A DNA stretch of 64,000 bases from Methanosarcina acetivorans C2A (GTDB lineage Archaea > Halobacteriota > Methanosarcinia > Methanosarcinales > Methanosarcinaceae): NCBI RefSeq assembly GCF_000007345.1, contig NC_003552.1, positions 434,001-498,000 on the forward strand, written 5' to 3'. The notes beneath the pieces were generated by a model. It did not search any database. It was given only the letters and a program-made list of their open reading frames with translations, and was not told the DNA's origin. Below are positions 14,684 through 35,360 of the stretch, piece by piece. Within the stretch, counting starts at the first letter, position 1. Each line of letters starts with the position of its first letter. The translations under genes and the position numbers were made by a program.

Positions 14684-17600
14684 TTAAAACTTTTTCTTCC
14701 GTATGCCCAGGTAAATTCCTCCGGCCGCAACCAGTACGAAAAGGGTTCCTAAAATGTCCGCACCCGAGAAGGACATCCCTCCCCCATCCTCATTTTCAAC
14801 AGTCTCCTGCGTCATTTCATAGCCTTCGACATAATCAGGATCTGCAGAAGATCTTGAGACTTCGGGTGCAGGTTCGGGAGAATCAACCCCGTATCCGGCA
14901 TCTTCCTCCATAACAGTCTGATTGCTGCTCTCAGAACTCCGAATCACAGGAGTTGAACTCCCCTTGTTCCCACTGCTGCTGTGCTTTTCAAATACTTCCT
15001 GCTCAAGGGATTCCTGCGTAGCTTCTTCAATTGCTTCGGTGAAACCGGGGACTGAGACCAAACCTGCAACATAGCTGTTGAGAGTGGGGTTTCCGCAGGT
15101 GTGATGACAGCATGTGACTCCGTCTTCCACAACGGATTCCGCATACTCCCTGGCAAGCTCTTCCAGGACTTCATCGGAAGGATTCCAGTCTCCCCTCCTT
15201 ACGGATTCGATGAGGTTAAGGGCAATTGACTGATAGGCATAAGGGTTCGTATTTTTCAGGTGTTCGGTAACCCCCAGGTCATACTGGTCCTGGAAATAGG
15301 TTTTGTAGACTTCATTCCACATGTCCTCCGTAACCAGATCGGGGGTAGCAACTTCCCATACCCGCATATTCTCAACAAAAGCATTCATATAACGTGTCCC
15401 GTCATACCCGTCCTGCATCATGCCTTCGATCCATGTGGGGTTCATATAACGAGAACGGAGGTCCCGGCTCAAGAAATGCTGCAGGGTTTCCACTCCTTCC
15501 TGTCCGGAGCTGCGCAGGTTATTGATGTACATGTCAGGACTGCTGCCTCGAACACTTTCCACTGCCATGGAAAGCCCTCCGAAATAGGCTGCAACCATCG
15601 GGTGCTCAAGCACTCCGTAAACATTGGATGTCCGGCTAAAGACCCCGACTTCCACATCAGCAAGGTTTTCCCGGAAGACATCCGTATACTGTTCTCCCCA
15701 GATATTTTCCCCGTAGACGTATCCCATACGGTCGATATAGAGATCTGCGATATCTTCCCTGTCTTCCCAGTCCGCTCCGGAAATGGCATTTTCGATTCCC
15801 GGAGTATACGAACCGGGTGACGGGCAGAAAATACGAGATGTGGAAAGGTTTTCAGCAGTTTCCTGATCATACCCGGCAGCCAGCAAAGATTCCTCAATCC
15901 TCTCAGAGTTCTGTTTTACGTAGTTAGGATAAGTTTCATCATCAGAAGCATTTGCTGCAAGTTTGACCGCCCTATCGATCAACTGGAGCCGGCTTGCATA
16001 CATGTCGCGGTAGGACCCGGAAGTCGTGACCAGAACATCTATTCTGGGCCTTCCGAGTTCATCCGAATCGATCAATTCCACGTCCTGTACCCGCCCTTTG
16101 CTGTCCCATACCGGCTTCACGCCAAGGAGGTAAAAGATCTCGGACTCCATAGTCCCCTGGTTCCTCGAAGTCTCTATGGACCAGAGCAGGAAAGAGACTT
16201 TTTCAGGATAGGTCCCGTTTTCAGCAAGCCGCTGTTCGAGAAGTTCGTCTCCGAGTTTGACTCCCACATTCCAGGCTGCCTTAGTAGGCACCAAACGGTC
16301 ATCAAAGGTACAGAGGTTTCTTCCGGTCGGAAGAGCATCCGGGTTTCTGATAGGGTCCCCTGCAGGTCCCGGAGGGATGTATTTCCCTTCCAGAGCATCG
16401 AGAATGCGCGGAATCTCAATGGTACAGGCATTGATTCTCTCCGTATACTCAAGGGCAAGCTCAAGGTCAGAGCTTACATTCTCCGAAGTCGTACCCAGCA
16501 CCAAGTTCTGGGCTTCTTCGGCTGTCCTTCCGGAAAGTACAGTCTCATTGAGAAGAAACGTCGTCAACCCATCCGTAGAGTTTACTTCCTCAACATGGGC
16601 TTTGAAATCATCCCCGAGCATTGCCTCGACCATTGCAACCAGGCTTTCTCCCGTAGGGGGCTCACTCAGGGTATGCGAACCGTAAGGCATGAAGATAGTC
16701 TTCAGTTCTCCGAGGTAGGCGTCCAGGTCCTCGATGAAAGCATCGGTTTTTGTTTCGTTTCCGGAAATGCTTTCAAGGTCCACTCCCAGGTCCGTGTCAA
16801 GGTCAAGCTCCCTGGTAGTATTAAGGATGAGCTCTCTGTATTCGGCCTTGACTGCCGGGTCATATGCCTGTTCGAACAGGTTTATGTCCTGCTGGAGCAG
16901 CGTCAGGTTTCCGTAAAGCCCGGAAGGTACAATGGTTGGGGTCAGGAAGTCCACAATCAGCATGTTCGCCCTTCGCCTGTCAAAAATCCCTTCGGCATCC
17001 ATCGGAAGTACATGAACCATAGGCATATCCTGCAGGAGAATCGCACCCCAGTCCTTTGCGGAAAGCCCGGATTCTTTTCCGGGCATCATCTCAATACTCG
17101 AAAAAATCGTGAAAAGAGCATCTGCTCCGTACTCCTCTCCCATGTACTTGTAGAAAGCCAGACACTGGTGGGTCGGAGGGATCGAACCGTCATAGTAGGT
17201 CACGGACTCATCCTGGTCCCAGCCCCACATCGGATCGGGAGCAAGCAGTATATTTCCGTATTCGAGCTTCGGAATTACGAGATACTTTCCGGTCTCGTTT
17301 TCCCAGACCATGATCTCTCCGGGAGCAGGCCCCCAGATCTCTTCCATCTCAGCCTGCTTCTCTTCAGGGAGAGAATCAAACCACTCAAGATACCTGGCTT
17401 CAGGAATGAGGATAACATCTCCGTTTTCAACAAGGGAATCAAGAACTCCCGGAGCCCAGACCCCCACATTATGTCCTCTTTCCAGCATGATTTCGGCAAG
17501 TTCGTCCCTGTCCGGAAGACTGTCGTTTCCGAGGTTGTATCCCCTTTCCTTCATTGCTAAAAGGAGGTTTGCAAGGCTTGCCTGAGCGTCCAGGTAGTAA

Positions 17601-19201
17601 TCAATGTCAGCCCCGATTTCAGCTTTCCCGGCTTCTGCAGCATAATAGGGGATTACGATCTTCTTTTCGGAGTTTGCTTTGCGGTGGAGTTCGGTCCAGG
17701 AAATTGTCCTGTTTACCAGCCATTCCACCTGATAGTCGATCGGATAGTAAACCGAATCTCCGATGGAAGGGTCCTTGCAACCGATTACTATGGGCTCTAT
17801 GATCCCGTCCATCTCCGCAGCCGAAAGCTGGTAAGTTTGCTCGGGCCCGACCCCATGAGAGGAGTTTTCCCATTCCTCCGCACTCACATCGTAGAAAAGG
17901 CGGATTCCATTCAGGGGGATCACATTCCAGGTCTTAAGGTCCTCGATTCCCTGTTCGGAGTCGGCATAGTTGAAGCGAGAACCCCGGGAAATTATGACCA
18001 CACTGTCTGCGATACAGCTCCCGTTCATCATTAAGTAGTCCCTGGAGCCTTCGTCTTTATATGAATAAGTAGCAACAACCACATTGCAGCCCCGGGATTC
18101 GAAGGAATCGACAAGAGCCTCCACAAGCGGTGCATCCCTGGTGTCAATGTACGTGAAACTATCCGAGATAATCCCCACAGTGGGCCTTGCAGGGTCATAA
18201 ACATGCTCATCATCGCCTCTGTTAAGGTACCAGTCAAGGTAATCGCTGGCAGAGGAATAGACTTCCGGGGCATCGGGGTGGTAAAGCCCGTATAAAGGAC
18301 GCGAAACGGGCTCTTCGATCACGTCATACCTGTCTGCGAACTTAACCCCCACAAAAGTAGCAAGCCTCTTGAAGTTTTCTTCCGAATCGTATGTGAAATA
18401 TTCAGTAATATCAGCATAATTCGGGTCCGAGAGGTTGACATTGTGCAGGTTGTAAGACTGGATCAGGTCTCCCAAACTGATAATATAAGCCCCGTTGGCT
18501 TTTGCCTGATTGACGGTAGGAGAGATAGCTTCTATTACCTGGGCGTCAAGGTTTCTCATTATTATAATATCCTTGTCGCTCAGATCGAAGCTCAGATCCT
18601 CATTGGAACGCCCGAAGTACGTACTGATATTAATGACTCCGGAGAGCTCAGGGTCAAGAGCCACTTTATCCATCGTCAGTACGGCACTTTCCCTGGAAAA
18701 GACAAAAGCAACTTCAAGCTTTTCCGGGTCCTGAACGCCACCTCCATAAAACGTGTCGTTCATGTATCTTATGAGCGTTTTGATGTTGTGGTACCCTCCG
18801 GCTTCCCAGAGCTCCGTCATATTCGGATCGTTTGAGTTCCCCAGGTCAAAACCTTCGGGAAGGTCATAAGAAACGATGTGTGCACTCTGGTTTAGCGTAC
18901 TGTTGATGTTTGCGAGGGCCTCCTCGTCAAGGGAAGCAAGAAAGAGCACCTTTTCTGAACTGAAGTCCGTGGAATTTGCTTCGGTGGCATTATAGAGATT
19001 TATAGTCACTCCCGGATCACCTTCAGCAAGCACGGCTTCAAATGCCTCCGTATTGTTCTCCGCTCCCAGCACGAAACTGAATGTATTTTCCGCTGCCGCG
19101 GCTGTCGATATCAGCGAGCTTAAGAGCATTAATAGCAATACCGAAGTTAAAAATTTTATACAAAAGTTTTTTTGAATAGAGATACATCTATTTTCAAACA
19201 T
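14684..19201 (-). CDS. Secreted CobN-like protein 1, chelatase signature lost
   Basis: About 1505 residues: signal peptide (residues about 12-36, ending STAAAAEN), a CobN/BchH-like class I chelatase region covering most of the protein, a conserved CCHHTCGNP motif near residue 1367, a Ser/Glu-rich stalk, and a C-terminal membrane helix (GTLFVLVAAGGIYLGIRKKKF) with a basic tail. Where the three sisters have H-G-T-x-E-W-L-P-G (near residue 700), this one reads FTIFSSIEMMPGKE: the His, Gly and Thr are gone. I place the start at 19201 because a TATA-like AATATATTA lies right before the upstream ATG 19309, which would put that ATG ahead of transcription. The gene lies 139 bp (247 bp from the chosen start) after CobN-like 2 and has no copy of the shared operators, so it may be co-transcribed. 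Confidence 0.85.
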   Translation of the reverse strand: MFENRCISIQKNFCIKFLTSVLLLMLLSSLISTAAAAENTFSFVLGAENNTEAFEAVLAEGDPGVTINLYNATEANSTDFSSEKVLFLASLDEEALANINSTLNQSAHIVSYDLPEGFDLGNSNDPNMTELWEAGGYHNIKTLIRYMNDTFYGGGVQDPEKLEVAFVFSRESAVLTMDKVALDPELSGVINISTYFGRSNEDLSFDLSDKDIIIMRNLDAQVIEAISPTVNQAKANGAYIISLGDLIQSYNLHNVNLSDPNYADITEYFTYDSEENFKRLATFVGVKFADRYDVIEEPVSRPLYGLYHPDAPEVYSSASDYLDWYLNRGDDEHVYDPARPTVGIISDSFTYIDTRDAPLVEALVDSFESRGCNVVVATYSYKDEGSRDYLMMNGSCIADSVVIISRGSRFNYADSEQGIEDLKTWNVIPLNGIRLFYDVSAEEWENSSHGVGPEQTYQLSAAEMDGIIEPIVIGCKDPSIGDSVYYPIDYQVEWLVNRTISWTELHRKANSEKKIVIPYYAAEAGKAEIGADIDYYLDAQASLANLLLAMKERGYNLGNDSLPDRDELAEIMLERGHNVGVWAPGVLDSLVENGDVILIPEARYLEWFDSLPEEKQAEMEEIWGPAPGEIMVWENETGKYLVIPKLEYGNILLAPDPMWGWDQDESVTYYDGSIPPTHQCLAFYKYMGEEYGADALFTIFSSIEMMPGKESGLSAKDWGAILLQDMPMVHVLPMDAEGIFDRRRANMLIVDFLTPTIVPSGLYGNLTLLQQDINLFEQAYDPAVKAEYRELILNTTRELDLDTDLGVDLESISGNETKTDAFIEDLDAYLGELKTIFMPYGSHTLSEPPTGESLVAMVEAMLGDDFKAHVEEVNSTDGLTTFLLNETVLSGRTAEEAQNLVLGTTSENVSSDLELALEYTERINACTIEIPRILDALEGKYIPPGPAGDPIRNPDALPTGRNLCTFDDRLVPTKAAWNVGVKLGDELLEQRLAENGTYPEKVSFLLWSIETSRNQGTMESEIFYLLGVKPVWDSKGRVQDVELIDSDELGRPRIDVLVTTSGSYRDMYASRLQLIDRAVKLAANASDDETYPNYVKQNSERIEESLLAAGYDQETAENLSTSRIFCPSPGSYTPGIENAISGADWEDREDIADLYIDRMGYVYGENIWGEQYTDVFRENLADVEVGVFSRTSNVYGVLEHPMVAAYFGGLSMAVESVRGSSPDMYINNLRSSGQEGVETLQHFLSRDLRSRYMNPTWIEGMMQDGYDGTRYMNAFVENMRVWEVATPDLVTEDMWNEVYKTYFQDQYDLGVTEHLKNTNPYAYQSIALNLIESVRRGDWNPSDEVLEELAREYAESVVEDGVTCCHHTCGNPTLNSYVAGLVSVPGFTEAIEEATQESLEQEVFEKHSSSGNKGSSTPVIRSSESSNQTVMEEDAGYGVDSPEPAPEVSRSSADPDYVEGYEMTQETVENEDGGGMSFSGADILGTLFVLVAAGGIYLGIRKKKF

Positions 19202-19448
19202 ATCGAAACACCTGTAGTATGCAGTCCGTGCCTGTGTGTGTGAAAACGGAGGTACGGACCGATCTTCAATTATTTTCTGAATTTGGGACTTTTTTAAGGA
19301 AAAAAACATAAAGTGGATAATATATTTTTGAGAGTGTTTTTGGATCTGACCTTTAAAATTTGGCCTTTAGAAAAGGACAGAAAGTGGAGAATAAGGCATG
19401 TTAAAACCCCACTTTCCTGAAATTCACCGGACTCATCCCCACCTGAAT

Positions 19449-22400
19449 TTACATTTTCTTCTTCCGCATGCCCAGGTAGATTCCTCCGGCAGCTGCAACC
19501 ACAAAGAGGGTCCCGAAAATATCCGCACCCGAGAAGGACATGCCTCCTCCATCCTCATTTTCAACAGCCTCTTTCTGCATCTCGTAGCCCTCCACATAAT
19601 CGGGATTATCTGCCATTTGGACCTCAGGAGCAGGCTCAGGAGAATCGACGCCATACCCGGCATCGGAATTTTGAACTGTCTGGTTGCTGGCAGAATCCTC
19701 GGGGCTTGACTTGGCAGTCTGGTTGAGTTTTTCGGCAACACTTGTCTGGTGACCTTTGCTGCTGTGCTTTTCAGGTTCTTCCTGCTCAAGGGACTCCTGC
19801 GTAGCCTCTTCGATTGCCTCGGTAAAACCGGGAACAGAGACCAGACCCGATACGTATCTGTTGAGGAGAGAGTTTCCGCAGGTATGGTGGCAGCAGGTGA
19901 CCCCGTCTTCGACAACGGACTCCGCGTAATCCGCAGCCAGGCTTTCGAGGATCTCGTCCGAGGCATCCCAGTTGCCTTTACGGGCCGTCTCAAGCATCCG
20001 GGCTGTCATGGACTGATAAGCATAGGGGTTATTCTGCTTGATCCAGTCGCTGAGTTCCCGGTCTGCCATGTAAGTCCGATACACCTGGTTCCACATATCA
20101 TCACTGATCAGGTCAGGGTTTGTGGCTTCCCAGCCCCAGAGGTTTTCAATGAAATCCGCCATTTCCCCGGCTCCCGCATAGCCGTTCCCCTGCATGCCTT
20201 CGATCCATTTCGGGTTGAAATAGCGGGAATAAGTTTCCCTTGTGAGGAACTCTTCCAGGGTTTCGACCTTCTCGTCTCCCCCGGTCAGCATGTTCGTGAT
20301 AAAGGAATCCGGGTACTTCCCTCCCGAAACGGAGCTGATTGCGAGATTCAACCCTCCGAGGTACTGGAAGAAATCGTCATTGTCCAGAGTCCCGTAAAGG
20401 TTTGTGCTCCGGCTGTGCACCGTGGCTTCGACGCCCTCAAGGTTCTTTTCGAAAAGCTCCCTCAGGTTTTCCCCCCAGATGTCTTCTCCGTAGGCGTTGC
20501 ACATCTTGCTGAGATAAAGTTCTGCAAGCGCATCATTACTCTCCCAGGTATCACTTGCAGCGATCGCATTGGGGAGCCCTGTGCCGTAGTCCCCGTCCGC
20601 AGCCCCGAAAATCCTTAGCAGGGCCAGGTCCAGAGCCTCAGTTTCATTAAGGGAGACCTCACTCATCAGCGAAGATTTAAGGGCTTCGGCATTTTCCCGG
20701 ACATAATTGGGAGAATCTTCCTGGGCATAAGCCACTTTTACGGCTTTGTCCAGCAAGCGCACCTTATCAGGGTACATGTCCCTGTAAAGGCCCGATATCT
20801 GGATCACGACATCAATTCTGGGCCTGCCCAGAGTCTCCATGGGGATCGCTTCCACATCAACTACCCTGCCGCTTTTCCACACAGGCTTGACCCCGAGCAG
20901 ATAGAGGATCTCTGCTTCCATGACTCCTTCGTGCCTTGTGGTCTCCCCGGCCCAGAGGATGTAAGCTACCTTTTTCGGGTAGGTCCCGTGTTCGGCAACA
21001 TAGGCTTCAAGCACCTGGTCAGCCATTTCCTGCCCGAGCGTCCAGGCAGCTTCTGTTGGCACTATGCGCTGGTCAAAAGCATAGAAGTTTCTTCCCGAAG
21101 GCAGAGCATCCGGATTTCTGACAGGGTCTCCTCCCTGATTTCCGGGAATGAACCTGCCGTCCAGTGCGTTTAGAACCTGCCGAATTTCCTCTTCTCCGAG
21201 AGCCAGGTTTGCAGCATATTCTTCCGCACTGGAAAGGAAGGTACTGACGGTTTCGTTCTCTGTCCCGAGAACCTCTATCTGCGCCTCGGAAGAATTGGCA
21301 CCCCGGTTCAGGACCAGATCCAGCAGATAGAGCTGGGCCCCTTCGGTTTCGTTGAATTCGTTTACCGAATCGGCAAAGTCAGTGCCAAGCATCGAATTTA
21401 CCATCCCCGTAAGCTGTTCCCCTTTCGGGCTTGTGCCCAGGATGTGCAGCCCGTAAGGCATTGACTGGCTCTTGTACTCATCCAGAAGTTCCTCAAGGCC
21501 TTCCAGGAAAACGTTATCAAAGTAAGTCTCGTTGTTTTCCGCTTCGGTCATGTTGAACTCATCGTCCAGGGAAAGGGACAGGGTCAGGTTTAAAACCTCA
21601 GACCTGTGAGCCGCTTTAAGGGTGGCGTCTGCTTCTGCCTGTTCATAGTTAAAGATCGCTTCGCTCAGGTTTGCATAATCCCCATAACTTCCAGCGGAAA
21701 CAATCGGAGGGACAAGGTGATCGACTATAACTGCTCCACCTCTGCGTTTTGCCTCATTGCCCTCTCCAAGCCCGTCCATCACATAAGGATAAATCACAGG
21801 CAGGTCCCCGAGCATCAGGGAAGGCCAGTCGTAGCGCGTAAGCCCGAATTCTTTTCCGGGAAGCCATTCCTGAGTCCCGTGCCTGCCGAAATGCACGAGG
21901 GTATCACTGCCAAACCCGCCTTCCTCTTCGGAATGCTGGAGCCAGAGGTAGAACGCAATGTACTGGTGGTGGGGAGGCAGTTCCGAATCGTGGTAAAGGG
22001 CCTCATTGTCATCAAGCCAGCCTCTGGAAGGCTGAGGAGCAAGAAGCACGTTATCCCCAACCTCGATTCTGGGGATTACAAGGTATTTTCCACTCTCGTT
22101 TTCCCAGACCATGATTTCCCCTGGAGCCGGCCCCCACTGGTCGATGACTTCCTGCTGCCTCTCTTCGGGAAGCTCCGAAAACCATTCCTCATATGTGCTT
22201 TCAGGGAGAAGAACGACTTTGCCCGTATCAACCATCTTCTCGAGTTCTCCGGGGGCCCAGGTTCCTATGTTTATGCCCTGAGTCAGCATCAGGTTAAGGA
22301 GTTCGGTCTCGTTCGGGGCCTGGCTTTCGTTCAGGGCATATCCTTCGGCAGCCATAGCATCAAGCAGGCCGGAGAGACTGGGGACGACATCAAGATAGGA

Positions 22401-23996: not shown

Positions 23997-24164
23997 AATC
24001 CCTACTCCAGAAGATGATTAAATTTGGTATGTGGAAAGCTCAGATCGTAATCCTGATTCTGTTAGCCGTTTGCAGTAAACCCTATTTTTAGCTTTAAATT
24101 CCCATCAGCAGACATGGCAAATCAGATTGGCAGGAAAAAATGAAGTACACAGCAAATAAATAGC

Positions 24165-24181
24165 TAAAGTAAACTTTATTT
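24165..24181 (-). promoter_or_regulatory. Box II operator-like site upstream of CobN-like 2
   Basis: Read on the gene strand it is AAATAAAGTTTACTTTA, a near-palindrome around a central base. The identical 17 bases occur at 41648-41664 by the ECF transporter gene, and a 16 of 17 match occurs at 30660-30676 before CobN-like 3. Confidence 0.55.
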
Positions 24182-24338
24182 AATAATGCAGAGGCAACAT
24201 CTCTCAATATTTTGAATTTTAAAGATGTTTTAGACAGCAATCGCCTCAACAAATCATTGACTGCTCACCTCAAAATATATACAATGCCAGAACATTTTAA
24301 CGCAATTTTACTTTACTTACATAAAAAACGGAGATTTT

Positions 24339-24618: not shown

Positions 24619-24738
24619 TACATCTTCTTTTACATCTTCTTTTACATTTTCTTTTACATCTTCTTTTACATCTTCTTTTACATTTTCTTTTACATCTTCT
24701 TTTACATCTTCTTTTACATCTTCTTTTACATTTTCTTC
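24619..24738 (-). repeat. Ten tandem 12-bp units repeating the last codons and stop
   Basis: On the gene strand the unit is AAAGAAGATGTA, with three AAAGAAAATGTA variants. The innermost copy contains the real end of CobN-like 3 (K-K-M-stop). Because the unit is 12 bp, each further copy presents K-K-M-stop again in the same frame, giving nine additional in-frame UAA codons after the true one. Confidence 0.9.
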
Positions 24739-27700
24739 TTCCGCATGCCCAGGTAGATTCCACCCATTGCTACTACTACAAAGAGAATTCCGACAATATC
24801 GGCCCCTGAAAAAGAGAAATCTCCGTTTTCTGCATTTTCTACGGATTCTTTCTGCATCTCATAACCCTCGACGTAATTTGAATCTGCTGCCTGTCGGACA
24901 TCCGGAGCGATCTCCGGAGAATCAACACCGTACCCCGCATCTGATGTCTGCGAGGTCTGGTTGCTGGCCGATTCCCCGGAGTTTGTTTCTGCGGTCTGGT
25001 TGCTGGACATACTTTCTTTTGAAACTACGGTAGCTTCCCCTGTACCAGAACCGCCACTGCTGCTACTGCTGCTTTCACTCGGCTCCTGAGAAGTCTCGCT
25101 TGATGTTGCCTGTTCAATAGCCTCGGTGAAACCGGGGACTGAGACCAGACCTGCAACATAGCTGTTTAAGGTCGGGTTTCCGCAGGTATGGTGACAGCAG
25201 GCAACTCCGTTTTCTACAACGGATTCTGCGTACTCCGTAGCAAGGTTCTTGAGGGCCTCATCCGAAGCATCCCAGTTGCCTTCCAGGGCAGTTTCCAGCA
25301 TTCTGGCCGTGATGGACTGGTATGCATAGGCATTGGTAGCTTTGAGCTCGGCATTGAGTTCGGAATCGGCGACATAGGTTTCATACACCTTGTTCCAGAT
25401 ATCGTCACTTACCAGGTCAGGGTTTGTCTTTTCCCAGCCCCAGAGGTTTTCAACATAGTCCGCTAACTGGCTCACCCCTTCAAAACCGCTTCCCAGCATT
25501 CCTTCAATGGATTTGGGGTTCAGGACACGGGTGATAATTTCCCTTGTAAGATACTCATTCAGGGTTTCTATCTCTTCATCCCCCGAATTTTGCAGGTTCA
25601 TTATGTACGAATCGGGGTACTCGCCTGAAACTGAGGAAACTGCAAGGTTAAGGCCGCCAAGATACTCAAAGGCATCACTATTATCCAGGATTCCGTAGGT
25701 ACTTGAACTGCGGCTGAAAACCGTAGCCTCAACATCTCCAAGGTTATCCTTAAAAATGTCCGTATTCTCAAGGGAACTGCCATCTACCTGGAACTGCGAG
25801 ACAATATCGGCTATACTCTCTCCCCATACATCTTCTCCATAAACATAGCTCATCCTGTCTATGTAAAGTTCAGCAATTTCACTGGTGCTGGAGTTGCTCG
25901 CAGAAACAACATTTGACAATCCGGTCCCGTAAGTGCCGTCCTCGGGTCCGAAAACCCTCAGAAGAGCCACGGTCATTGAAGCGGTCTCGTTTTGGAGAGA
26001 TTCGTTAAGGACAAGGAAAAGGTCATTGGTATTCTCCCGGACATAATTCGTATTTTCTTCCGGGTCATAGGAGATATACTCCGGGGTCGGTCTTTCCTCA
26101 TCTTTTCCGTACTGGTTGTCAGGGTCGTTGTAAGCAAGGTAGACTGCTTTATCGATCAGCTCTACCTTATGGGGGAAAGTGTCCCTGTAGAGCCCCGAAA
26201 TCTGTACAAGCACGTCAATGCGCGGCCTGCCCAGTTCCGAAGAATTGATCAGTTCGACATCTATGACCTCATCTCCGTCGTCGTCCCAGACCGGCTTTAC
26301 TCCCAGGAGGTAGAAGATTTCAGCCTCGGTTACTCCCTCGTTCCGGGTAGATTCCCCAGCCCAGAGGATCAGGCCTATTTTCTTCGGATACTGCCCTTCG
26401 TGATTAGCCTGGTAGGTTTCGATTGTCTGGTTAGCCATTTCCTTACCAAGTTCCCACGCCTGCTTCGTGGGGGACAGTTGTTCGTCAAAGGCGTAGAAGT
26501 TCCTCCCCGAGGGAAGCGCGTCCGGCCGGAGTATGGGATCTCCACCAATATTCGGTTCGATGTATTCACCGTCCAGAGCCTTAAGAACCTGCTGGATTTC
26601 ATTTTTACTTTCTCCGAGTTTTTCTGCGTATTCCTGGGCCGTGGTCAGGTAACCGGTCACTTCTTCGGAACTGCTCCCGAGAACCTGTATCTGGGCGTCT
26701 TCAATACTCACGTTCTGCAGGAGGACAAGGTCAAGAAGGTCAAGAGAAGCGTTTTCAGAACTATTGTATTCAGCCACCTCTTCGGAAAAATCGTCTCCCA
26801 GCATCGAGTAGACCATCTGTGTGAGGTTTTCTCCCTCAGGAGAAGTTCCGAGTATGTGAAGCCCATAGGGCATGGAAGTAGTCTTAAGTTCCTCCAGAAT
26901 ATCGTCAAGCTCGTCAAGGAACTCTTCTTCCGTATCCTCACTTTCGGACAGGCTTACGTTCACAAATTCGTCAAGGCTAAGTTCCATGGTGAGATTAACG
27001 ATTTCCTGCATACGAAGTTCTTTCAATTCGGATTCGCTGGGAAGGGTCTGGTACTGGGAAATCTTGCTGCTCAACTCGGTGTAATTCCCATAACTTTCGG
27101 AAAGCACAACCGGCGGGACCAGATGGTCTATAATCACCGCATTGCCCCTGCGCTTTGCCTGCATTCCTTCTCCCATCCCGTCCATGATATAGGGATAAAT
27201 TACCGGTATGTCCCCGCTAATGATTGCAGGCCACTCGTCACTGAAGAGGCAGAATTCTTTTCCGGGAAGCCATTCCACAGTCCCGTGGCGGCCCATATTC
27301 ACAATCGCATCGGCTCCGTACTCATTCTGGAGCCAGAGGTAGAATGCGAGGTACTGGTGGTGGGGAGGCAGGTCTCCATCATGGTAGAGAAGTTCGTTGT
27401 CCGAAAGCCACCCTCTTGTTGGCTGGGGGGCAAGGATTACATTATCACTGACTTCAACCTTCGGAATTACCAGGAATTTGTCCCCGGAATCGTCTTCATA
27501 GACCATTATTTCTCCGGGTGCGGGCCCCCAGGTCTCGAGAACTTCCTGCTGCCTCTCTTCGGGGAGCGCCGAAAACCATTCAAGGTATGTTGATTCTGGA
27601 ATAAGCTCAACTTCTCCTGACTCGACAAGCCTTTCAAGCTCTCCCGGAGCCCAGGTCCCTATATTCGTACCCTGTTTTAACATCAGGTTTGTTAATTCGC

Positions 27701-30494
27701 TTTCATTCGGAATAGAGTCCTTATCAATATCATAGCCCTCATCGGCCATTCCTTCAAGGAGATTGTTAATACTCGGGATAACCTCAAGATAAGAAGCTCC
27801 TATGCTGTCATTTCCGCAGCCGTGGCTGTAATAGAGGATTGCAACTTTTTTCTCGGATTCGCTCTTTCCTGAAAGGTCGGTCTGGGAAACTGCCCTGTCA
27901 ACAAGCCATTCCACCTGGGCCTCAACAGGGACATACACTTCGGTATTTGTTTCGTTATCCAGCTCATTGGAAGCGATCATTATCGGGTCGATCCAACCCC
28001 AGGTCTCGGGCCTGTACAGCCTGATCATATAGGTATTTGTCAGAGGATCGCTAACATTCTGCCATTCGCTGAGGTTCATGTAACCGTTGAGGACGCAGTT
28101 GATAACCGGAACTCCCAGTTCTTCAACATCAAAATACTGACTGCGATAGGTGGTCGAGACTATCAGGTCGGCTTTTGTAGAGCTGTTATAATTGAGGAAT
28201 TTGTCAACATATTCCTTGCTGGACCCGTAGCATGCTATGACATTCACACCCCGGGACTCAAACTCCTCTATGAGCGCATCGATAGGCTGCATGTCCGCAG
28301 GATAATAAGAGAGGTAGAACAGTATCCCTACCGTGGGAGCGTTTTCATCAAAAGAATGTTCGCTTTCATTCCTGCTTCCATACCATTCAAAGTATTCACT
28401 CGCATTGGCAGTAAAGTAAGAACTGTTAACCATACCCGGGTGATAAATGGCGCTGGCGGCTCCTTCCGGGGCTGAGACCTGAAGGTCGTCCCGGGCATAG
28501 AACACCTGAGCCAGATAGAAGATCAGGTTATCAAAGTTTGCGTCATTCGTAGCCCCGTACACCCAGTAGTCCTGAAGATAGGCCTTAAGTTCCCCCTCAT
28601 CCGAAAACGAAGAAGGAAGGGAAGAGTTGTCTATGCTTTCCGGCAGATAAGTGTTATAGCCTATGACAACGGCTCCGTTTGCGATCGCTTCATTGACAGT
28701 ATTTTCAAGTTTACTGGCACTGTCGGTAAACATATTGATATAAATTATATCCATATCACTGAGATCAACATCCTCTCCACTGGTGGCAGGCAGGTAATAG
28801 GAAACACTCATATTAAGGGAAGAGTTGCCGTTAATCCTCTCTGCGAGGGCATTCAATTTAAGGTCATAATTTGAGTACCCCGTGATTATAGCTACATTGA
28901 GGTGGGAAGTGCTACCTGAATTTGAAGAATCCGAATCCTGATTCGAAGAGCCGGATGTTTTTTTCAGGAGTACCAGGTCCGTTCCGGCCTTGATATCCCC
29001 GGACTTGCTGAGAGTCAGGCCGGAAATGGTAGTTCTGTCAAGATAACCGAGGATCTCTTCATGGTCGATATTCTCATTACTTCTCATGGCAAAAGTGAGA
29101 TTTACAGGCTGACCGTCCTCAATGCTGAATTCGCTTTCATTGGTAAGCCACATCCCTCCCATGGAAGAACTGTAGATTACAGCAGAAAGCCGGTAGGCTC
29201 CATTAGGAACATCTGAAAAGACATATTCTCCATTTGCATCGCTTGTAGTGTTGGCAACGAATTCTTCATCCTGAGTGGTAAGGACAAGATCGGTTCCGGC
29301 CTTGATATCTCCGGTCTTGCTGAGAGTCTGGCCGGAAATGGTAGTTCTGTCAAGATATCCGAGGATCTCTTCATGGTCGATACTCTCATTACTTCTCATG
29401 GCAAAGGTGAAATTTACAGGCTGACCGTCCTCAATGCTGAATTCGCTTTCATTGGTAAGCCACATCCCTCCCATGGAAGAACTGTAGATTACAGCAGAAA
29501 GCCGGTAGGCTCCATCAGGGATATCTGAGAAAAGGAATTCTCCGTTCTCATCGCTTGTAGTGTTGGCAACGAATTCTTCATCCTGAGTGGTAAGGACAAG
29601 ATCGGTTCCGGCCTTGATATCTCCGGTCTTGCTGAGAGTCAGGCCAGAAACGGTAGTTCTGTCAAGATATCCGAGGATCTCTTCATGGTCGATGTCCTCA
29701 TTACTTCTCATGGCAAAAGTGAGATTTACAGGCTGACCGTCTTCAATGCTGAATTCGCTTTCATTGGTAAGCCACATTCCCCCCATGGAGGAACTGTAGA
29801 TTATAGCAGAAAGCCGGTAGTCTCCATTCGGGATATCTGAGAAAAAGAATTCTCCGTTCTCATCACTTGTAGTATTGCCAAAGAATTTGAAAAAAGATCC
29901 GGATGTAGAGTCCTGATTTTCTTCTGAGTCCTGAGATTCCGTCTCATTTTGATCAGGTTCGTCAGAGGCGGAAGAGTCAGATTCGGAAGAATCAGAGATG
30001 TACGTAAGATTTACAAATCCATCGTCGGATGTACTATTTAGCAAAATAACAGTACTCATTCTTGGGTAATCAAGACTCCTAACATAAGAAATTCCGGAAA
30101 CAGAAAAACCCGAAACAGAAGAATCCGTAGCAGAAGAATTATTCAGTAAATCCTGCACCCAATAAGGATCAATGTAATTGCTGCTGTTTATCCGAAGATT
30201 CCGGTCAACCAGGTCCGTACCGTGCACCGTAATATTCAATGAAGCTGTATACCATATATTTTTATCATCAGAATAATTCGTTGCAACGAGAGTATAGTTA
30301 CCATCAGGGATATTATTAAAAATATAATATCCATTTTCATCACAGGTCGTATTTGCAACCAGCTCATACTGCACATCATCACTTTCAGATGCCTGAGCAG
30401 TTGAAACCAGTAAAAAAAGCATCAAGAAAACTAATCCGTAAATTTTAATTTTTTTATTCAAAGGGGTTGTTCCTTCTTTCAAATTTTTAATCAT
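24726..30494 (-). CDS. Secreted CobN-like protein 3 with three internal repeats
   Basis: 1922 residues, the largest of the four. Order: signal peptide (about 14-36), one carboxypeptidase-regulatory-like beta-sandwich (about 40-105), an acidic Ser-rich linker, three nearly identical 104-residue beta-sandwich repeats (about 201-511; typical element SDENGEFLFSDIPDGAYRLS), the CobN-like core with VNMGRHGTVEWLPGKEF near 1070, CCHHTCGNP near 1768, a Ser/Asn/Gly-rich stalk, a membrane helix near 1900 and RKKKM. The repeats should extend the core away from the membrane or bind surface glycans; I infer this from comparable surface proteins. Two operator-like boxes lie upstream, and a stop-codon repeat lies at the 3' end. 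Confidence 0.9.
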   Translation of the reverse strand: MIKNLKEGTTPLNKKIKIYGLVFLMLFLLVSTAQASESDDVQYELVANTTCDENGYYIFNNIPDGNYTLVATNYSDDKNIWYTASLNITVHGTDLVDRNLRINSSNYIDPYWVQDLLNNSSATDSSVSGFSVSGISYVRSLDYPRMSTVILLNSTSDDGFVNLTYISDSSESDSSASDEPDQNETESQDSEENQDSTSGSFFKFFGNTTSDENGEFFFSDIPNGDYRLSAIIYSSSMGGMWLTNESEFSIEDGQPVNLTFAMRSNEDIDHEEILGYLDRTTVSGLTLSKTGDIKAGTDLVLTTQDEEFVANTTSDENGEFLFSDIPDGAYRLSAVIYSSSMGGMWLTNESEFSIEDGQPVNFTFAMRSNESIDHEEILGYLDRTTISGQTLSKTGDIKAGTDLVLTTQDEEFVANTTSDANGEYVFSDVPNGAYRLSAVIYSSSMGGMWLTNESEFSIEDGQPVNLTFAMRSNENIDHEEILGYLDRTTISGLTLSKSGDIKAGTDLVLLKKTSGSSNQDSDSSNSGSTSHLNVAIITGYSNYDLKLNALAERINGNSSLNMSVSYYLPATSGEDVDLSDMDIIYINMFTDSASKLENTVNEAIANGAVVIGYNTYLPESIDNSSLPSSFSDEGELKAYLQDYWVYGATNDANFDNLIFYLAQVFYARDDLQVSAPEGAASAIYHPGMVNSSYFTANASEYFEWYGSRNESEHSFDENAPTVGILFYLSYYPADMQPIDALIEEFESRGVNVIACYGSSKEYVDKFLNYNSSTKADLIVSTTYRSQYFDVEELGVPVINCVLNGYMNLSEWQNVSDPLTNTYMIRLYRPETWGWIDPIMIASNELDNETNTEVYVPVEAQVEWLVDRAVSQTDLSGKSESEKKVAILYYSHGCGNDSIGASYLEVIPSINNLLEGMADEGYDIDKDSIPNESELTNLMLKQGTNIGTWAPGELERLVESGEVELIPESTYLEWFSALPEERQQEVLETWGPAPGEIMVYEDDSGDKFLVIPKVEVSDNVILAPQPTRGWLSDNELLYHDGDLPPHHQYLAFYLWLQNEYGADAIVNMGRHGTVEWLPGKEFCLFSDEWPAIISGDIPVIYPYIMDGMGEGMQAKRRGNAVIIDHLVPPVVLSESYGNYTELSSKISQYQTLPSESELKELRMQEIVNLTMELSLDEFVNVSLSESEDTEEEFLDELDDILEELKTTSMPYGLHILGTSPEGENLTQMVYSMLGDDFSEEVAEYNSSENASLDLLDLVLLQNVSIEDAQIQVLGSSSEEVTGYLTTAQEYAEKLGESKNEIQQVLKALDGEYIEPNIGGDPILRPDALPSGRNFYAFDEQLSPTKQAWELGKEMANQTIETYQANHEGQYPKKIGLILWAGESTRNEGVTEAEIFYLLGVKPVWDDDGDEVIDVELINSSELGRPRIDVLVQISGLYRDTFPHKVELIDKAVYLAYNDPDNQYGKDEERPTPEYISYDPEENTNYVRENTNDLFLVLNESLQNETASMTVALLRVFGPEDGTYGTGLSNVVSASNSSTSEIAELYIDRMSYVYGEDVWGESIADIVSQFQVDGSSLENTDIFKDNLGDVEATVFSRSSSTYGILDNSDAFEYLGGLNLAVSSVSGEYPDSYIMNLQNSGDEEIETLNEYLTREIITRVLNPKSIEGMLGSGFEGVSQLADYVENLWGWEKTNPDLVSDDIWNKVYETYVADSELNAELKATNAYAYQSITARMLETALEGNWDASDEALKNLATEYAESVVENGVACCHHTCGNPTLNSYVAGLVSVPGFTEAIEQATSSETSQEPSESSSSSSGGSGTGEATVVSKESMSSNQTAETNSGESASNQTSQTSDAGYGVDSPEIAPDVRQAADSNYVEGYEMQKESVENAENGDFSFSGADIVGILFVVVAMGGIYLGMRKKKM
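28960..29890 (-). repeat. Three tandem 312-bp coding repeats
   Basis: The period is exactly 312 bp (104 codons): the marker CGGTTCCGGCC recurs at 29291 and 29603, with its counterpart at 28979. The copies are almost identical in DNA, so the expansion is recent or kept uniform by recombination. Each unit encodes one beta-sandwich domain of CobN-like protein 3. Confidence 0.9.
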
Positions 30495-30659
30495 AACCTT
30501 CTCTCCAGTTAATTGTTCGGTTCTGCCAGAATACCGGAGTACAATCTCGAAACTGCATGCTGCTTGGGGAGTACTCTTAAAATTTCAGTTAAACTCATTT
30601 CACCAGCAAACCTGATAGACCAGATTTGAAGGAAAAAAATCTCATATTATACAAATAAA

Positions 30660-30676
30660 TAAAGTAAACTTTACTT
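30660..30676 (-). promoter_or_regulatory. Box II operator-like site upstream of CobN-like 3
   Basis: Gene-strand AAGTAAAGTTTACTTTA has 7-bp perfect arms (AAGTAAA and TTTACTT) around a central G. This is the most symmetric of the three copies of this box in the window. Confidence 0.6.
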
Positions 30677-30833
30677 CGTAATACAGCAAGAAAATATCAT
30701 CCAAAGGAGGAAATTGGAAGACATTTTAAAGAACTGTAGCCTCGAAACGCATCAACATTTCCCCTTTAATAAGGAGGTATATTTGACAATTTTAGCTCAA
30801 GTTTACTTTACTTGTATAAAAACCTGTGATTTC

Positions 30834-30852
30834 AGATAAGAATTATTAGCTA
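30834..30852 (-). promoter_or_regulatory. Box I palindrome and TATA of CobN-like 3
   Basis: Gene-strand TAGCTAATAATTCTTATCT, then about 11 bp to the TATA-like GTTTTTATACAAG, which runs into the half-site AAGTAAAGTAAAC at about 30800-30813. The order and spacing match those before CobN-like 2. Confidence 0.55.
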
Positions 30853-31001
30853 AATAGATAACAAAAAAATATTGGAATGTTTGCGTGAGAAAAAGAATTG
30901 CAAAAGAACGAAAAGATAAAAAGGAAAAGTGAAAAGAAAGGTAAAAAGGAAAAATGAAAAGAAAAGAACACAAAATAAAAGTTCTTTTCTTCCGTACGAA
31001 T

Positions 31002-34000
31002 TTACATCTTCTTTTTCCGCATTCCCAGGTAAATTCCACCCACTGCCACAATCACGAAGAGTACTCCGACGACATCGGAACCCGAGAAGGACATGCCTCC
31101 ACTTTCTTCTTCAACCGGATCCCTCTGCATCTCGTAGCCTTCCACATAATCGGAATCTGCAGATTTCTCAGGAGAGGAGGAAGAAGATTCCGGGGAATCC
31201 ATACCATACCCGACTTCAGAATCCTGAGTAGTCTGGTTGCTGGATGTACTTTCTTTTGAGACTACGGTAGCATTTCCGGTACTGTGACTGCTGCTACTTC
31301 TGCTGCTCTGCGTCTCTTCCGTGGTTTCCGGAGTTTTGGCCTGGGTTGCTGCATCGAGTTGTTCGGAGTAGCCTGGAACAGAGGCAATCCCGCTGACGAA
31401 TTCGTCAAGCAGGGGGTTTCCGCAGGTATGGTGGCAGCATGTAGCTCCGTTTTCAGCCACGGATTCTTCATATGCTGTTGCAAGGCTCTCAATAATCTCA
31501 TCCGACGGTTCCCAGTAACCGTGCCTGACAGCTTCGAGCATCCTGGCAGTTATGGACTGGTAAGCATCAGGGTTATTCTGTTTGAACCACTCTTTCATGG
31601 AGGGGTCATTGACGTAAGTCTCGTATACCTGCTCCCAGACCGTATCGTCCACAAGGTCAGGGTCGCTGACTTCCCATCCGAAGAGGTTGTTCACGAACTC
31701 GGACATCAGCCTGCCGCCCGAATATCCGGCGCCCTGCATCCCTTCAATCCATTTATCATTGAAATACCTGGACCTCAGGTTCTTGCTCAGGTATTCCTCC
31801 ATTCCAACCATCTGAGCATTATCAGGGTCTCTGGTATCCGAAACGTACATTTCCGGAGTTTTACCGTCTCCTCTTACGTACCTCGTTGCCAGGTTAAGAC
31901 CTCCGAAATACTGGAAAAAGTCATCGTTGTCAAGAGTGTCGTAAAGGTTTGAAGAGTCAGAATGTACGGAGGCTTCTACGTTTTTAAGGTTCCCTTCAAG
32001 GAGTTCTCTGCATTTTATGCCCCAGAAATCTTCTCCGTAAGCATATCCCATTTTATCCAGGTATACGTTTGCAATCGTCTCTTCATTATCCCAGCTGCCA
32101 CTCGCACCGATAGCGTTTGAGACCCCTATTTCATAGGTCCCATCCATTACCGCAAAGCAGCGCATTGTGGAGAGCTTTGTTGCAGTCTCACTGTCGTATC
32201 CTGCCTCAAGCAGGGCATCGTAGATAGCAAGCGAACTCTGGTTCACGTAGTTGGGATAGTTTCCCGAAGGAAGCGAGCTTGCAAGTTTTACGGCCTGGTC
32301 TACCATTTTGATCTTATCCGGGAAAGCATCCCTCATGCCTGCGGTAGTATATACGATATCGATACGCGGCCTCCCGGGCTTTGAAGTATCATAGTTCGGC
32401 AGCAGTTCTTCTTCAGGGATAGCCTCAACCCCGGTTACGTAACCGTACTCGTCCCAGACAGGCTGCACCCCGAGCATGTAGAGCACTTCGGCTTCCAGGG
32501 TCCCGTGGTCGCGGATAAATTCTACTCCGAACCTTGAGAACGAAACCTTTTCCGGATATTCCCCATACTTATCGTGGTAGTCCTCAAGCAGCTGGATTGC
32601 AAGGGATTTCCCGAGCTCCCAGGTTGCCTTTGAAGGGTAGAGCTTTGAGTTGATGCCGTAGAAGTTCCGTCCAGTCGGTACCGCATCAGGGTTCATAACA
32701 GGGTCCGTACCCGGGCCTGGAGGGATAAAGCCTCCGTTTAAGGCTGAAAGGACTCTGTCAATCTCCACATCGCAGTCGAGAAGCCTGCTCCTGTACTCAA
32801 GCCCGCGTTCAAGGTCAAGGGTAACCGAACTGTTGCTTGTCCCGTAAACCTCAAGCTGCGCCTCGGAAACCCCGGTATTATTGGTCATTATCTCCCAGAC
32901 AAGCCTGTTAACTTTCGTATCATTCAATGGAATCCCGAGGGGGTAAACCGACTCCGGGTAGAAGGCTGCTGTAACATTGTCCTCGAAATTTCCTCCGAGC
33001 ATGGACCTTACCATTGCAGAGAGCTCGTCTTTCTCAGGATCTGTCAGGTTAGTTGAAGGCACCTTGCCAAGGACATGCACCCCGTAAGGAATGTTTTCTC
33101 CCTCCACATCTTCCAGATACTCATGAAGGACGTTCTTTACGAAAGCCGTAAACTCCTCTTCACTGTAATCCCTGAGAGCTGTTGCGTTATCGATTCCCAG
33201 GTCAACATCCAGGTTAAGTTCAATTATCTGGTCAACTATGACTTTCTGGTAGCCTGCCTTTGTCTGTGTGGAAATGGCAGGATCATAATATTGCTCCACA
33301 CTGATTGAAAGGTTGAGCAGGTCTCCGTAAAGCCCGCTGCGCTCAAGGGTAGGAGTGAGGTGGTCGATAATAAGAGCATTACCTCTGTACTCGGCAGTCA
33401 GCCCTTCTCCTACGTTGGCAACTATGTAAGGATAGATGTTAGGAATATCCTGAAGCAGCAAAGGCGCCCAGTCAGAAGTCCGGTTCATGCCGTAGGTAGA
33501 GCCCGGAAGCCACTCGTGCGTACCGTGGGTACCCATGTGGATAACTGCATCGGGTTGCCACTCATGGTTCAGCCAGAGGTAGAAAGCTATGTACTGGTGA
33601 GGGGGAGGCACGAGGCTACTGTGGTAAAGGGTATCGTCATTTTGCAGGAAGCCCCTGGCAGGCTGAGGCATAAGCCAGACGTTTCCGAAACGCACCGCAG
33701 GAATTACAATATACTGTCCTGTCTCGTTTTCATAGATCATGAGACTCTTATTCTGGGGCAGGTCTTCAGCCCAGGGTTCACCCCATTCCTCTATTACATC
33801 GGATCTCAGGTCTTCCGGAATTTCCGACTCAAACCATTCCCTGTAGGTTTCCATGGGTATGAGGTACAGGCCCCATTCTGTCCTGTTTTCTACCATTTCG
33901 TTCATGACACCCGGAGCCCAGGACCCGGCATTGATTCCCTGTGCCTGCATCATTTCCAGAAGCTCGCTGCTGTTATCCGGAATTCCTGAAACTTCATACC

Positions 34001-35360
34001 CGCTTTCATTCATCGCATCGATAAGGTCCAGCATGCTCTTGGTGCTATTAAGGTAGCTTGCCCCGATGTTGTCTTTTCCGGAGGGGTAGTTGTAATAGAT
34101 AACAGCGACTTTCTTGTCCTCGTTATCCTTTAACTTCAGGTCCGCCCAGTTTATCGCCCTATTTGCGATCCAGTCAACCTGATCGGGGAGGGGTTCGTAT
34201 TTGCTTTCCCCGGTTTCGGAATCATAATTATCAAGCCCTATCACGATGTACTCAAAAATTCCGTCAATGCTCGGAAGCAGGGTCTTGTACACAACCTCAC
34301 TGTTGGGAATACCCCTGTTACTGTCAGCCGTATCGGAAGAGTCGGCAGGATTTGAAACTACCATACCTCTTAAAACCGGGACATCAAGGGCTTCAAGTTC
34401 CTCTATCCCTTTATCAGGGTCCTCGTAATTCAACCGGAAACTCTTGAGAGAAATTACGCACTGAACAAGAGGATCTCCATTTTCATCAAAGTAAAAATTA
34501 TGAATATCATTAAAAGTTTCAAAACCTGCAATTACGTTGCAGCCCTTTCCTTCAAGATCCCGGATAAGGTAGTCTATGACTTCAAGGTTGCCAGCCGTAT
34601 AATCGGATGCATGGAACCAGATCCCTATGGTGGGTTTGTTCTTATCGTAAACGTGGTGAGACTCGTTCACAGTTGAATTGGAATACCAGTCAAGGTAATC
34701 CGTGGTATTTTCAAACCAGTCAGGTTCCGTCTCATTCAAAGAGGAACGAGCGTCCGGATGATAGAGGGCAGCGTCAGGGAATTCTATGGGATCATTATAA
34801 ACCCAGCGGTCCGTAAGCTCGGGTTTATCCCCGTAAGTTTTTGCCAGATATATAAGGAAATTTTCAGTGTTTTTCAGCAAAATTCCCGTCGGACCCATAC
34901 TGTAGAAGTATTTCTCTTCAGTAGAATTATAAGGCTTGGTCCCCGGCAGTATCAAGTCGTAACTTGAGGTATTGATGTATGTCGGGTCCATCACAGAGGT
35001 GATATCTATGAGAGCGGTTCCGTTTTCATGAGCCCTTTCAAGATCGGCCCCGATATACTGGTACTGAGACCATAACATATAGGTAAATATTACATCCTGG
35101 TTTTCAATAGTGACATTGGAAAAGTCCGAATAACCCGAAATATAAGTTACATTTATACTTGCATTATACGGATTGGATTGCTCTGCTGCATTCAAAGCGT
35201 TTCCGTCATAACAGATAAAAGTGATATTTACCTGATTTTCATCAGCCGATACATTCTGTGCAAACAGTAAAAAGAAAACTGCACATAAAACAAGTAACCT
35301 ACTTCGTGCCGTATGCATCTTATCCCCAGTCAAATTATCATGAACCCTGCGGCACCCCAA
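31002..35360 (-). CDS. Secreted CobN-like protein 4
   Basis: 1452 residues, the shortest and most divergent sister. The signal peptide (about 16-40, ending NVSADEN) leads straight into the CobN-like region without a beta-sandwich domain. The chelatase signature is intact (HMGTHGTHEWLPGS near residue 613), and CCHHTCGNP lies near 1309. A Ser-rich stalk, a membrane helix and RKKKM finish the protein. A gene for a ZIP metal transporter lies 375 bp upstream in the same direction. The promoter carries the cleanest copy of the Box I palindrome but no Box II. An intact His in the signature suggests it still binds a metal or macrocycle; this is inference from the chelatase family. Confidence 0.9.
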   Translation of the reverse strand: MGCRRVHDNLTGDKMHTARSRLLVLCAVFFLLFAQNVSADENQVNITFICYDGNALNAAEQSNPYNASINVTYISGYSDFSNVTIENQDVIFTYMLWSQYQYIGADLERAHENGTALIDITSVMDPTYINTSSYDLILPGTKPYNSTEEKYFYSMGPTGILLKNTENFLIYLAKTYGDKPELTDRWVYNDPIEFPDAALYHPDARSSLNETEPDWFENTTDYLDWYSNSTVNESHHVYDKNKPTIGIWFHASDYTAGNLEVIDYLIRDLEGKGCNVIAGFETFNDIHNFYFDENGDPLVQCVISLKSFRLNYEDPDKGIEELEALDVPVLRGMVVSNPADSSDTADSNRGIPNSEVVYKTLLPSIDGIFEYIVIGLDNYDSETGESKYEPLPDQVDWIANRAINWADLKLKDNEDKKVAVIYYNYPSGKDNIGASYLNSTKSMLDLIDAMNESGYEVSGIPDNSSELLEMMQAQGINAGSWAPGVMNEMVENRTEWGLYLIPMETYREWFESEIPEDLRSDVIEEWGEPWAEDLPQNKSLMIYENETGQYIVIPAVRFGNVWLMPQPARGFLQNDDTLYHSSLVPPPHQYIAFYLWLNHEWQPDAVIHMGTHGTHEWLPGSTYGMNRTSDWAPLLLQDIPNIYPYIVANVGEGLTAEYRGNALIIDHLTPTLERSGLYGDLLNLSISVEQYYDPAISTQTKAGYQKVIVDQIIELNLDVDLGIDNATALRDYSEEEFTAFVKNVLHEYLEDVEGENIPYGVHVLGKVPSTNLTDPEKDELSAMVRSMLGGNFEDNVTAAFYPESVYPLGIPLNDTKVNRLVWEIMTNNTGVSEAQLEVYGTSNSSVTLDLERGLEYRSRLLDCDVEIDRVLSALNGGFIPPGPGTDPVMNPDAVPTGRNFYGINSKLYPSKATWELGKSLAIQLLEDYHDKYGEYPEKVSFSRFGVEFIRDHGTLEAEVLYMLGVQPVWDEYGYVTGVEAIPEEELLPNYDTSKPGRPRIDIVYTTAGMRDAFPDKIKMVDQAVKLASSLPSGNYPNYVNQSSLAIYDALLEAGYDSETATKLSTMRCFAVMDGTYEIGVSNAIGASGSWDNEETIANVYLDKMGYAYGEDFWGIKCRELLEGNLKNVEASVHSDSSNLYDTLDNDDFFQYFGGLNLATRYVRGDGKTPEMYVSDTRDPDNAQMVGMEEYLSKNLRSRYFNDKWIEGMQGAGYSGGRLMSEFVNNLFGWEVSDPDLVDDTVWEQVYETYVNDPSMKEWFKQNNPDAYQSITARMLEAVRHGYWEPSDEIIESLATAYEESVAENGATCCHHTCGNPLLDEFVSGIASVPGYSEQLDAATQAKTPETTEETQSSRSSSSHSTGNATVVSKESTSSNQTTQDSEVGYGMDSPESSSSSPEKSADSDYVEGYEMQRDPVEEESGGMSFSGSDVVGVLFVIVAVGGIYLGMRKKKM

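Follow-up and report, generated by a model that had tools for sequence, protein, structure and literature searches.

Four consecutive CobN-like genes

The window analysed here is a stretch of 64,000 nucleotides (positions 434001-498000) of the single-contig, 5,751,492-bp genome of Methanosarcina acetivorans C2A, and it carries four consecutive CobN-like genes, which we call A to D. All four are minus-strand open reading frames (ORFs), of 1541, 1515, 1922 and 1452 residues, respectively, and we computed the fold, location signals, kinship, gene linkage and residue classes of their products. The Pfam family CobN-Mg_chel was matched by each protein over nearly its entire 1090-position model (1014-1124 bits, E = 0). 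Each protein also had a single N-terminal hydrophobic, signal-like segment, one CCHHTCGN motif, a low-complexity stalk and a single C-terminal helix within an FSG[AS]D...GGIYLG-RKKK[MF] tail. The features are as follows, in window positions.

14684-19309, minus: gene A, predicted secreted, tail-anchored CobN-like protein with an altered active site (ORF, Pfam, topology)
15167-18403, minus: CobN/Mg-chelatase core of A (Pfam)
17096-17113, minus: FTIFSS of A, replacing the HFG[T/A]HG loop of the superfamily; two residues shorter and lacking the His
15575-15607, minus: EHPMVAAYFGG of A, replacing DNDDFFQYLGG
15089-15112, minus: CCHHTCGN of A
19449-23996, minus: gene B, predicted secreted, tail-anchored CobN-like protein (ORF, Pfam, topology)
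19953-23174, minus: CobN core of B (Pfam)
21876-21893, minus: HFGRHG of B, holding the catalytic His of the superfamily
20352-20384, minus: DNDDFFQYLGG of B, with the CobN-type Asp at HmuS position 1209
19872-19895, minus: CCHHTCGN of B
24726-30494, minus: gene C, predicted secreted, tail-anchored CobN-like protein with N-terminal beta-domain repeats
28981-29887, minus: tandem repeat with a 312-bp unit (2.9 copies), encoding part of the carboxypeptidase-regulatory-like domains of C
25254-28568, minus: CobN core of C, with NMGRHG at 27282-27299 and DNSDAFEYLGG at 25653-25685
25176-25199, minus: CCHHTCGN of C
31002-35360, minus: gene D, predicted secreted, tail-anchored CobN-like protein (ORF, Pfam, topology)
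31497-34874, minus: CobN core of D, with HMGTHG at 33522-33539 and DNDDFFQYFGG at 31899-31931
31416-31439, minus: CCHHTCGN of D
35736-36503, minus: ZIP-family metal transporter gene, immediately upstream of D

The density of N-glycosylation sequons was 16-24 per 1000 residues in the secreted-type proteins of this genome, versus 1.5-2.3 in its cytosolic CobN paralogues. NCBIfam reported no archaeal sorting signal for A-D, and a plain tail anchor is therefore the simplest reading of the C-terminus. Together, these sequence features support the location of A-D on the outer face of the membrane, to which they would be exported and then anchored. An earlier note on this DNA had described four proteins in a row with signal, CobN core, CCHHTCGN, stalk, helix and RKKK tail, and had placed them outside the cell. 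The ORFs and the Pfam, motif and topology scans bore out the description, and signal, tail anchor and sequon density all agreed with the extracellular site and disfavoured a cytoplasmic one.

The true starts of A and D are probably internal to these ORFs, at the ATG codons at 19201 and 35318, respectively. Protein C has four stretches that match carboxypeptidase-regulatory-like beta domains, coded in part by the 312-bp repeat; Pfam found one weak copy of this domain in B and none in A or D. As all four genes are on the minus strand, transcription would proceed from D to A, although the intergenic gaps (139 bp for A/B, 729 bp for B/C and 507 bp for C/D) make a single tight operon unlikely. It is uncertain whether the ZIP gene upstream of D is part of the system; a ZIP fragment was also found upstream of the D orthologue in another Methanosarcina. 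A 12-bp repeat present ten times (AAAGAAGATGTA, minus strand) occupies window positions 24619-24737, starting with the final codons and stop of C, and a gene for a FilR1/Msr-type transcription regulator lies near gene A (window 11215-12003).

Family, predicted fold and active sites

A tree was built from 76 proteins, comprising secreted archaeal proteins, seven HmuS of Bacteroidota, one homologue each from Trichlorobacter lovleyi and a plasmid of Pseudoalteromonas, CobN, BchH and the cytosolic paralogues. A branch with a Shimodaira-Hasegawa-like approximate likelihood ratio test (SH-aLRT) support of 100 separated HmuS, the archaeal secreted proteins, Trichlorobacter and Pseudoalteromonas (56 proteins) from CobN, BchH and the cytosolic paralogues (20 proteins). 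By this sequence-based placement, A-D are an archaeal branch of the BtuS/HmuS family, outside the CobN clade, and the kinship with HmuS to which the earlier note had pointed is upheld by both tree and sequence comparison. The BtuS/HmuS family has been put forward as a third CobN type in work cited in PMC6460266, and the public NCBIfam name of A-D, "cobaltochelatase subunit CobN", is misleading. The C-terminal extension that carries CCHHTCGN in A-D reads CSGFVCDN in many HmuS and CCDHTCNN in Trichlorobacter, and is absent from CobN and BchH.

PF02514 proteins number twelve in the genome: two are cytosolic, of about 1300 residues, and the other ten, including a broken one, are of the secreted type. 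Among the cores of A-D, B and C are closest (57% identity), with A and D at 44% and 42% identity to B. Each of the four genes has its own orthologues in other Methanosarcina in the tree, which rules out a recent tandem duplication, and the ratio of non-synonymous to synonymous substitution rates (dN/dS), at about 0.10-0.13, shows purifying selection on all four.

The broken gene (genome 5460684-5463953; L018:8162-12352 in our locus numbering, minus strand) has an in-frame TAG and TAA and is divided into ORFs of 947, 244 and 165 residues. One M. acetivorans homologue of CobN has in the past been suggested as a pyrrolysine read-through gene (PMC1242214); if that candidate is this gene, the TAA argues for a broken gene. 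The two cytosolic paralogues (L015:7751-11659 and L016:5926-9828; genome 1035.8 and 1051.9 kb) have the Cys-rich sites ECCHIYGSHG and GCCCYFGVHG, cluster with three DCGCY-bearing bacterial proteins without His538, and are possibly an additional sub-branch of the superfamily.

AlphaFold2 models of the cores of A (1199 residues) and B (1196 residues) had a predicted local distance difference test (pLDDT) score of 90.8 and 90.6, respectively, and both show a complete predicted class I chelatase fold, as the earlier note had proposed; they matched full-length HmuS, CobN and ChlH at Z 34-41. For B, three entries tied at the top: CobN 7c6o (Z 39.7, 1044 residues aligned, 5.3 A), HmuS 9p4s (Z 39.3, 1043 aligned, 3.4 A) and 9d26 (Z 39.1, 1088 aligned, 3.5 A). 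For A, HmuS ranked first (Z 41, 1045 aligned, 3.3 A), with CobN at Z 39. HmuS aligned with the B model to residue 1185, whereas CobN and ChlH ended near residue 1150, ahead of the CCHHTCGN at model residues 1154-1161. One core domain also matched B12-binding mutase domains in part (Z about 8-9); this was left unused, as such scores are common for this fold type.

The site residues, numbered after HmuS, were compared across 49 archaeal proteins, six of which are of the A type. The catalytic His (His538 of HFG[T/A]HG) is present in B, C and D, and all 43 archaeal non-A proteins share it, together with Glu577. Asp stands at position 1209 in 41 of these 43, in 8/8 CobN and in the two bacterial homologues (2/2), whereas 19/19 HmuS and six of seven BchH have His there. 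The HmuS motif LSLDHxxEFMGG, which includes His1209 and Glu1212, is lacking, its place being taken by DNDDFFQY in B and D, DNSDAFEY in C and EHPMVAAY in A. Heme site 1 of HmuS was likewise missing: Met79 was found in none of the 49 archaeal proteins and His254 in two, neither of them from the window. The Met-rich insertion of domain IV is also absent, with 0, 0, 0 and 1 Met within 57-68 residues in A-D versus 23 in 225 residues in HmuS. The archaeal non-A proteins thus combine the ancestry and architecture of HmuS with the residue type of the corrin-metallating CobN.

Gene A departs from this pattern, with FTIFSS for HFG[T/A]HG and EHPMVAAYFGG for DNDDFFQYLGG, so that the catalytic His is missing and position 1209 is a Met. 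These replacements are shared by all six A-type proteins, which come from three archaeal families and form their own clade (support 100), and in two loci (L081 and L083) the A-type gene is the sole CobN-like gene beside the module described below. A decaying pseudogene is ruled out by the sharing of the altered motifs among six proteins of three families and by the dN/dS of 0.13; the conserved clade and this ratio indicate that the site of A is a maintained alternative. The division of labour among the four copies that the earlier note had tied to their N-terminal extensions is plausible, but the differences extend beyond these extensions into the core and active site.

The linked DUF2162-ExbB-DUF2149 module

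The M. acetivorans genome has three triads of genes for a DUF2162 protein (T), a MotA/ExbB protein (U) and a DUF2149 protein (V), at 402.5-404.3, 5470.2-5472.0 and 5726.7-5728.4 kb, and genes for secreted CobN-like proteins (S) lie directly downstream of each. A survey of neighbours in other Methanosarcina, which the earlier note had proposed, showed that orthologues of the window genes stand behind this triad, in the order D-B-A in L051 and L052, A-D-B in L053 and L054, D-B in L055 and D-C in L057 and L058 (the truncated D of L051 and B of L053 and L054 were assigned by order and similarity, outside the tree). We also read 20 T-U-V loci from other genera and families, picked for diversity: 14 have S directly behind on the same strand, two have S adjoining in another order, and one is at a contig edge. 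DUF2149 was found in 85 of the 296 sampled genomes of the phylum.

The module is related to the hmuYRSTUV (hmu) operon of Bacteroides. HmuU is a MotA_ExbB protein and HmuV, described as being without a known family in a 2026 paper (PMC13227078), matched DUF2149 (E 3.3e-34). HmuV has been likened to ExbD, with Methanomicrobia among the hits listed (PMC10100974). In all 37 V sequences a single Asp, that of the motif VANLFD, stands within a hydrophobic stretch and coincides with the Asp of ExbD when the two are aligned, and a PCPxC motif recurs in at least 90% of the archaeal T sequences. In Bacteroides, HmuU and HmuV have been assigned to powering an outer-membrane receptor via TonB (PMC12583661, PMC10100974).

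The M. acetivorans genome had no match to TonB_C or ExbD. Such archaea are not known to have an outer membrane. The plasmid of Trichlorobacter lovleyi SZ (NC_010815) bears on the same question: its operon runs TonB receptor, T-U-V-S, ExbB-ExbD-TonB, TonB receptor, such that U-V is present in addition to a separate ExbB-ExbD-TonB beside the second receptor. Because U-V is kept beside S in a genome that lacks TonB_C and ExbD, and because Trichlorobacter has a separate ExbB-ExbD-TonB, these gene arrangements point to S or T as the likely target of U-V, and it is more likely that this probable proton motor serves the chelatase-like protein S.

Two transposon-like segments in the window (37230-38217 and 48027-49059) have inverted copies, 99.7-99.8% identical, at 417.6-419.6 kb of the genome (417591-419609), beside the triad array at 402 kb. 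The S array may have been broken up with the help of these copies. One suggestion is that a single inversion between insertion-element copies (99.7%) separated the array from T-U-V, although another element seems to interrupt the copy at 418 kb. A gene for an ArsR-type regulator is divergent from the T-U-V at 402 kb (L013:3436-3951; genome 401.4-402.0 kb), and ORFs of similar size occupy this position in most Methanosarcina arrays. In three Methanosarcina, genes of 264 codons lie upstream of D-type S genes (L050:3134, L059:6770 and L067:5032), and the products of those in L050 and L059 belong to DUF1638, a family tied to B12-dependent methionine synthesis (PMC5764234).

Ligand, mechanism and alternatives

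The Trichlorobacter operon is flanked by cobalamin genes, and two cobalamin riboswitches (107 and 65 bits) were found directly ahead of it. The 2012 genome paper had seen its CobN without CobST and predicted transport of siderophore, B12 or a precursor, leaving riboswitches unmentioned (PMC3403914); cobalamin riboswitches have been reported on some hmu-like operons of Bacteroides (PMC10100974). The Trichlorobacter protein resembles the archaeal ones in the T-U-V-S order, the Asp-type site and the tail anchor, with CCDHTCNN standing for CCHHTCGN, and differs in its TonB receptors, separate ExbB-ExbD-TonB and riboswitch control, none of which was found in the archaeal loci. Based on the CobN-type Asp, the lack of the extra HmuS heme site and the Trichlorobacter riboswitches, a corrinoid is favoured over heme as the ligand of the A-D family, and the ligand may differ among the paralogues.

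We give roughly even odds (about 0.5) to the reading that A-D are the S subunits of a cell-surface machine that handles tetrapyrroles, most likely corrinoids, and is worked by a proton-driven U-V; what we infer here is the ligand, the proton coupling and the direction of the reaction. S, held outside the membrane by its C-terminal helix, would bind a metallo-tetrapyrrole in the CobN/ChlH cleft, where the superfamily His and the facing Asp of B, C and D would hold or exchange the metal. With neither ATP nor a CobST/ChlID-type AAA+ partner outside the cell, the ExbB-like U and the single-helix, Asp-bearing V would form the motor that works S, and T, which has the apparently invariant PCPxC motif, may pass metal, electrons or ligand through the membrane. 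The likely outcome would be that cobalt, or the corrinoid itself, is salvaged. Protein A, with a Met and no His, would take a different ligand or bind without demetallation. Metal removal, which the earlier note had considered, is demonstrated for HmuS only (PMC12583661) and is putative for A-D. The outline of that note, extracellular proteins related to HmuS, stands; the ligand class, partners and nature of A have been extended or corrected, and the triad, the CobN-type site and the riboswitches had been missed.

Several points weigh against the corrinoid machine. The window genes are not adjacent to T-U-V, as about 44 kb separate A, and 61 kb D, from the closest triad, and three of the 20 T-U-V loci had no S nearby (L076, L078 and L088; a metallo-beta-lactamase-fold gene is next in L078 and L088). 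The profile comparison of V with a single ExbD profile was not significant (E 0.25), so that V as an ExbD equivalent rests on the motif, the linkage to U and the published likeness (PMC10100974). A relation of HmuT to DUF2162 was not detected by profile comparison, HmuT having no Pfam match, and this homology was set aside. The His/Asp split at position 1209 comes from few groups and could reflect ancestry instead of ligand. Neither the window, the 398-418 kb locus (L013) nor seven other archaeal loci yielded a cobalamin riboswitch, and archaeal control of this kind was dropped. Homologues in M. barkeri respond to the iron/sulfur source, which fits iron equally well (PMC10846266), and a CobN1 of another methanogen is specific to nickel limitation (PMC12350162). 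Finally, HmuS in vitro makes 1-2 turnovers on NADH alone, with no need for a motor (PMC12583661).

HmuS (BtuS2) of Bacteroides, with its HmuT-HmuU-HmuV partners (PMC12583661, PMC10100974, PMC13227078), is a heme de-chelatase and among the closest known systems. A-D share with HmuS the clade, fold, anchoring and a related C-terminal extension, B, C and D also have His538 and Glu577, and the linked module has homologous U (ExbB) and V (DUF2149) proteins. A-D could be heme de-chelatases that remove iron from heme outside the cell, with the iron entering by FeoB or ZIP: HmuS is their best or tied-best relative by structure and sequence, BtuS1/2 are required for use of heme iron in B. fragilis (PMC6460266), the M. 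barkeri homologues are up in Fe(II)/Cys and FeS2 media versus Fe(II)/HS- (PMC10846266), and a ZIP gene lies upstream of D. However, the archaeal proteins lack the Met79/His254 site and the Met-rich insertion and have Asp/Gln for His1209/Glu1212, which weakens a strict HmuS function, and the riboswitch link of the Trichlorobacter homologue indicates corrinoids. The systems also differ in the archaeal DUF2162 in place of HmuT, the order T-U-V-S, the lack of a TonB system, and the ten paralogues in the M. acetivorans genome, with one subfamily lacking His538. HmuY and HmuR were not seen in the loci read, although no genome search for these families was made. We consider the heme reading unlikely.

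It is similarly improbable that S is a corrinoid receptor without chemistry, which captures its ligand at the surface for T-U-V to carry inward intact. The conserved, His-free pattern of A and the TonB receptors and cobalamin riboswitches of the Trichlorobacter operon would fit such a receptor, but the retention of His538 and Glu577 in all 43 archaeal non-A proteins would not. Furthermore, ABC (ATP-binding cassette)-type B12 importers are known in archaea, and it would have to be explained why a further route of uptake is kept.

Methanogens have a high requirement for F430, and S might therefore scavenge F430 or its breakdown products from dead methanogens and recover the nickel. CobN1 is abundant only under nickel limitation in another methanogen, although this CobN1 need not be a secreted S protein (PMC12350162). 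No sequence feature indicates F430 as such, Trichlorobacter and Pseudoalteromonas are non-methanogens, and we regard this explanation as very improbable. An ordinary CobN of CobNST, inserting cobalt in B12 synthesis, would fit the NCBIfam label, the full-length core homology and the CobN-type Asp at position 1209 of B, C and D, but is ruled out to near certainty by the signal peptide, outer-face sequons and tail anchor of A-D, the lack of ATP outside the cell, their partners and their place outside the clade of CobN, itself a cytoplasmic, ATP-dependent protein with AAA+ partners and no C-terminal extension or anchor. ChlH/BchH of magnesium chelatase, similarly, share the core fold with A-D but are cytoplasmic, with His at 1209, ChlI/ChlD partners and a separate clade.

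A broader and more tentative proposal is that A-D represent a family of class I chelatases whose ATP-driven AAA+ partner has given way to a proton-driven ExbB/DUF2149 motor, which would work on the chelatase subunit itself, at the outer face, with a His-free, Met-containing subfamily for another ligand. The 2025 HmuS paper left unanswered what the many archaeal CobN/HmuS homologues are used for and stated that the complete operon is absent in archaea, as did the M. barkeri study; the present analysis links the motor-like half of the hmu module to these homologues. If the proposal is true, this would be the first protein of the class I chelatase type to be driven by proton flow, and one that can be studied in a genetically tractable species; metal exchange in corrinoids or other tetrapyrroles would be powered without extracellular ATP. 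The proposal would also give a reason why HmuU and HmuV stay with HmuS, and would change their accepted role in TonB-dependent heme import. Widespread methanogen surface proteins that are named for cobalt insertion would then serve the salvage of B12-type cofactors or their metals, for which methylotrophic methanogens have a large demand.

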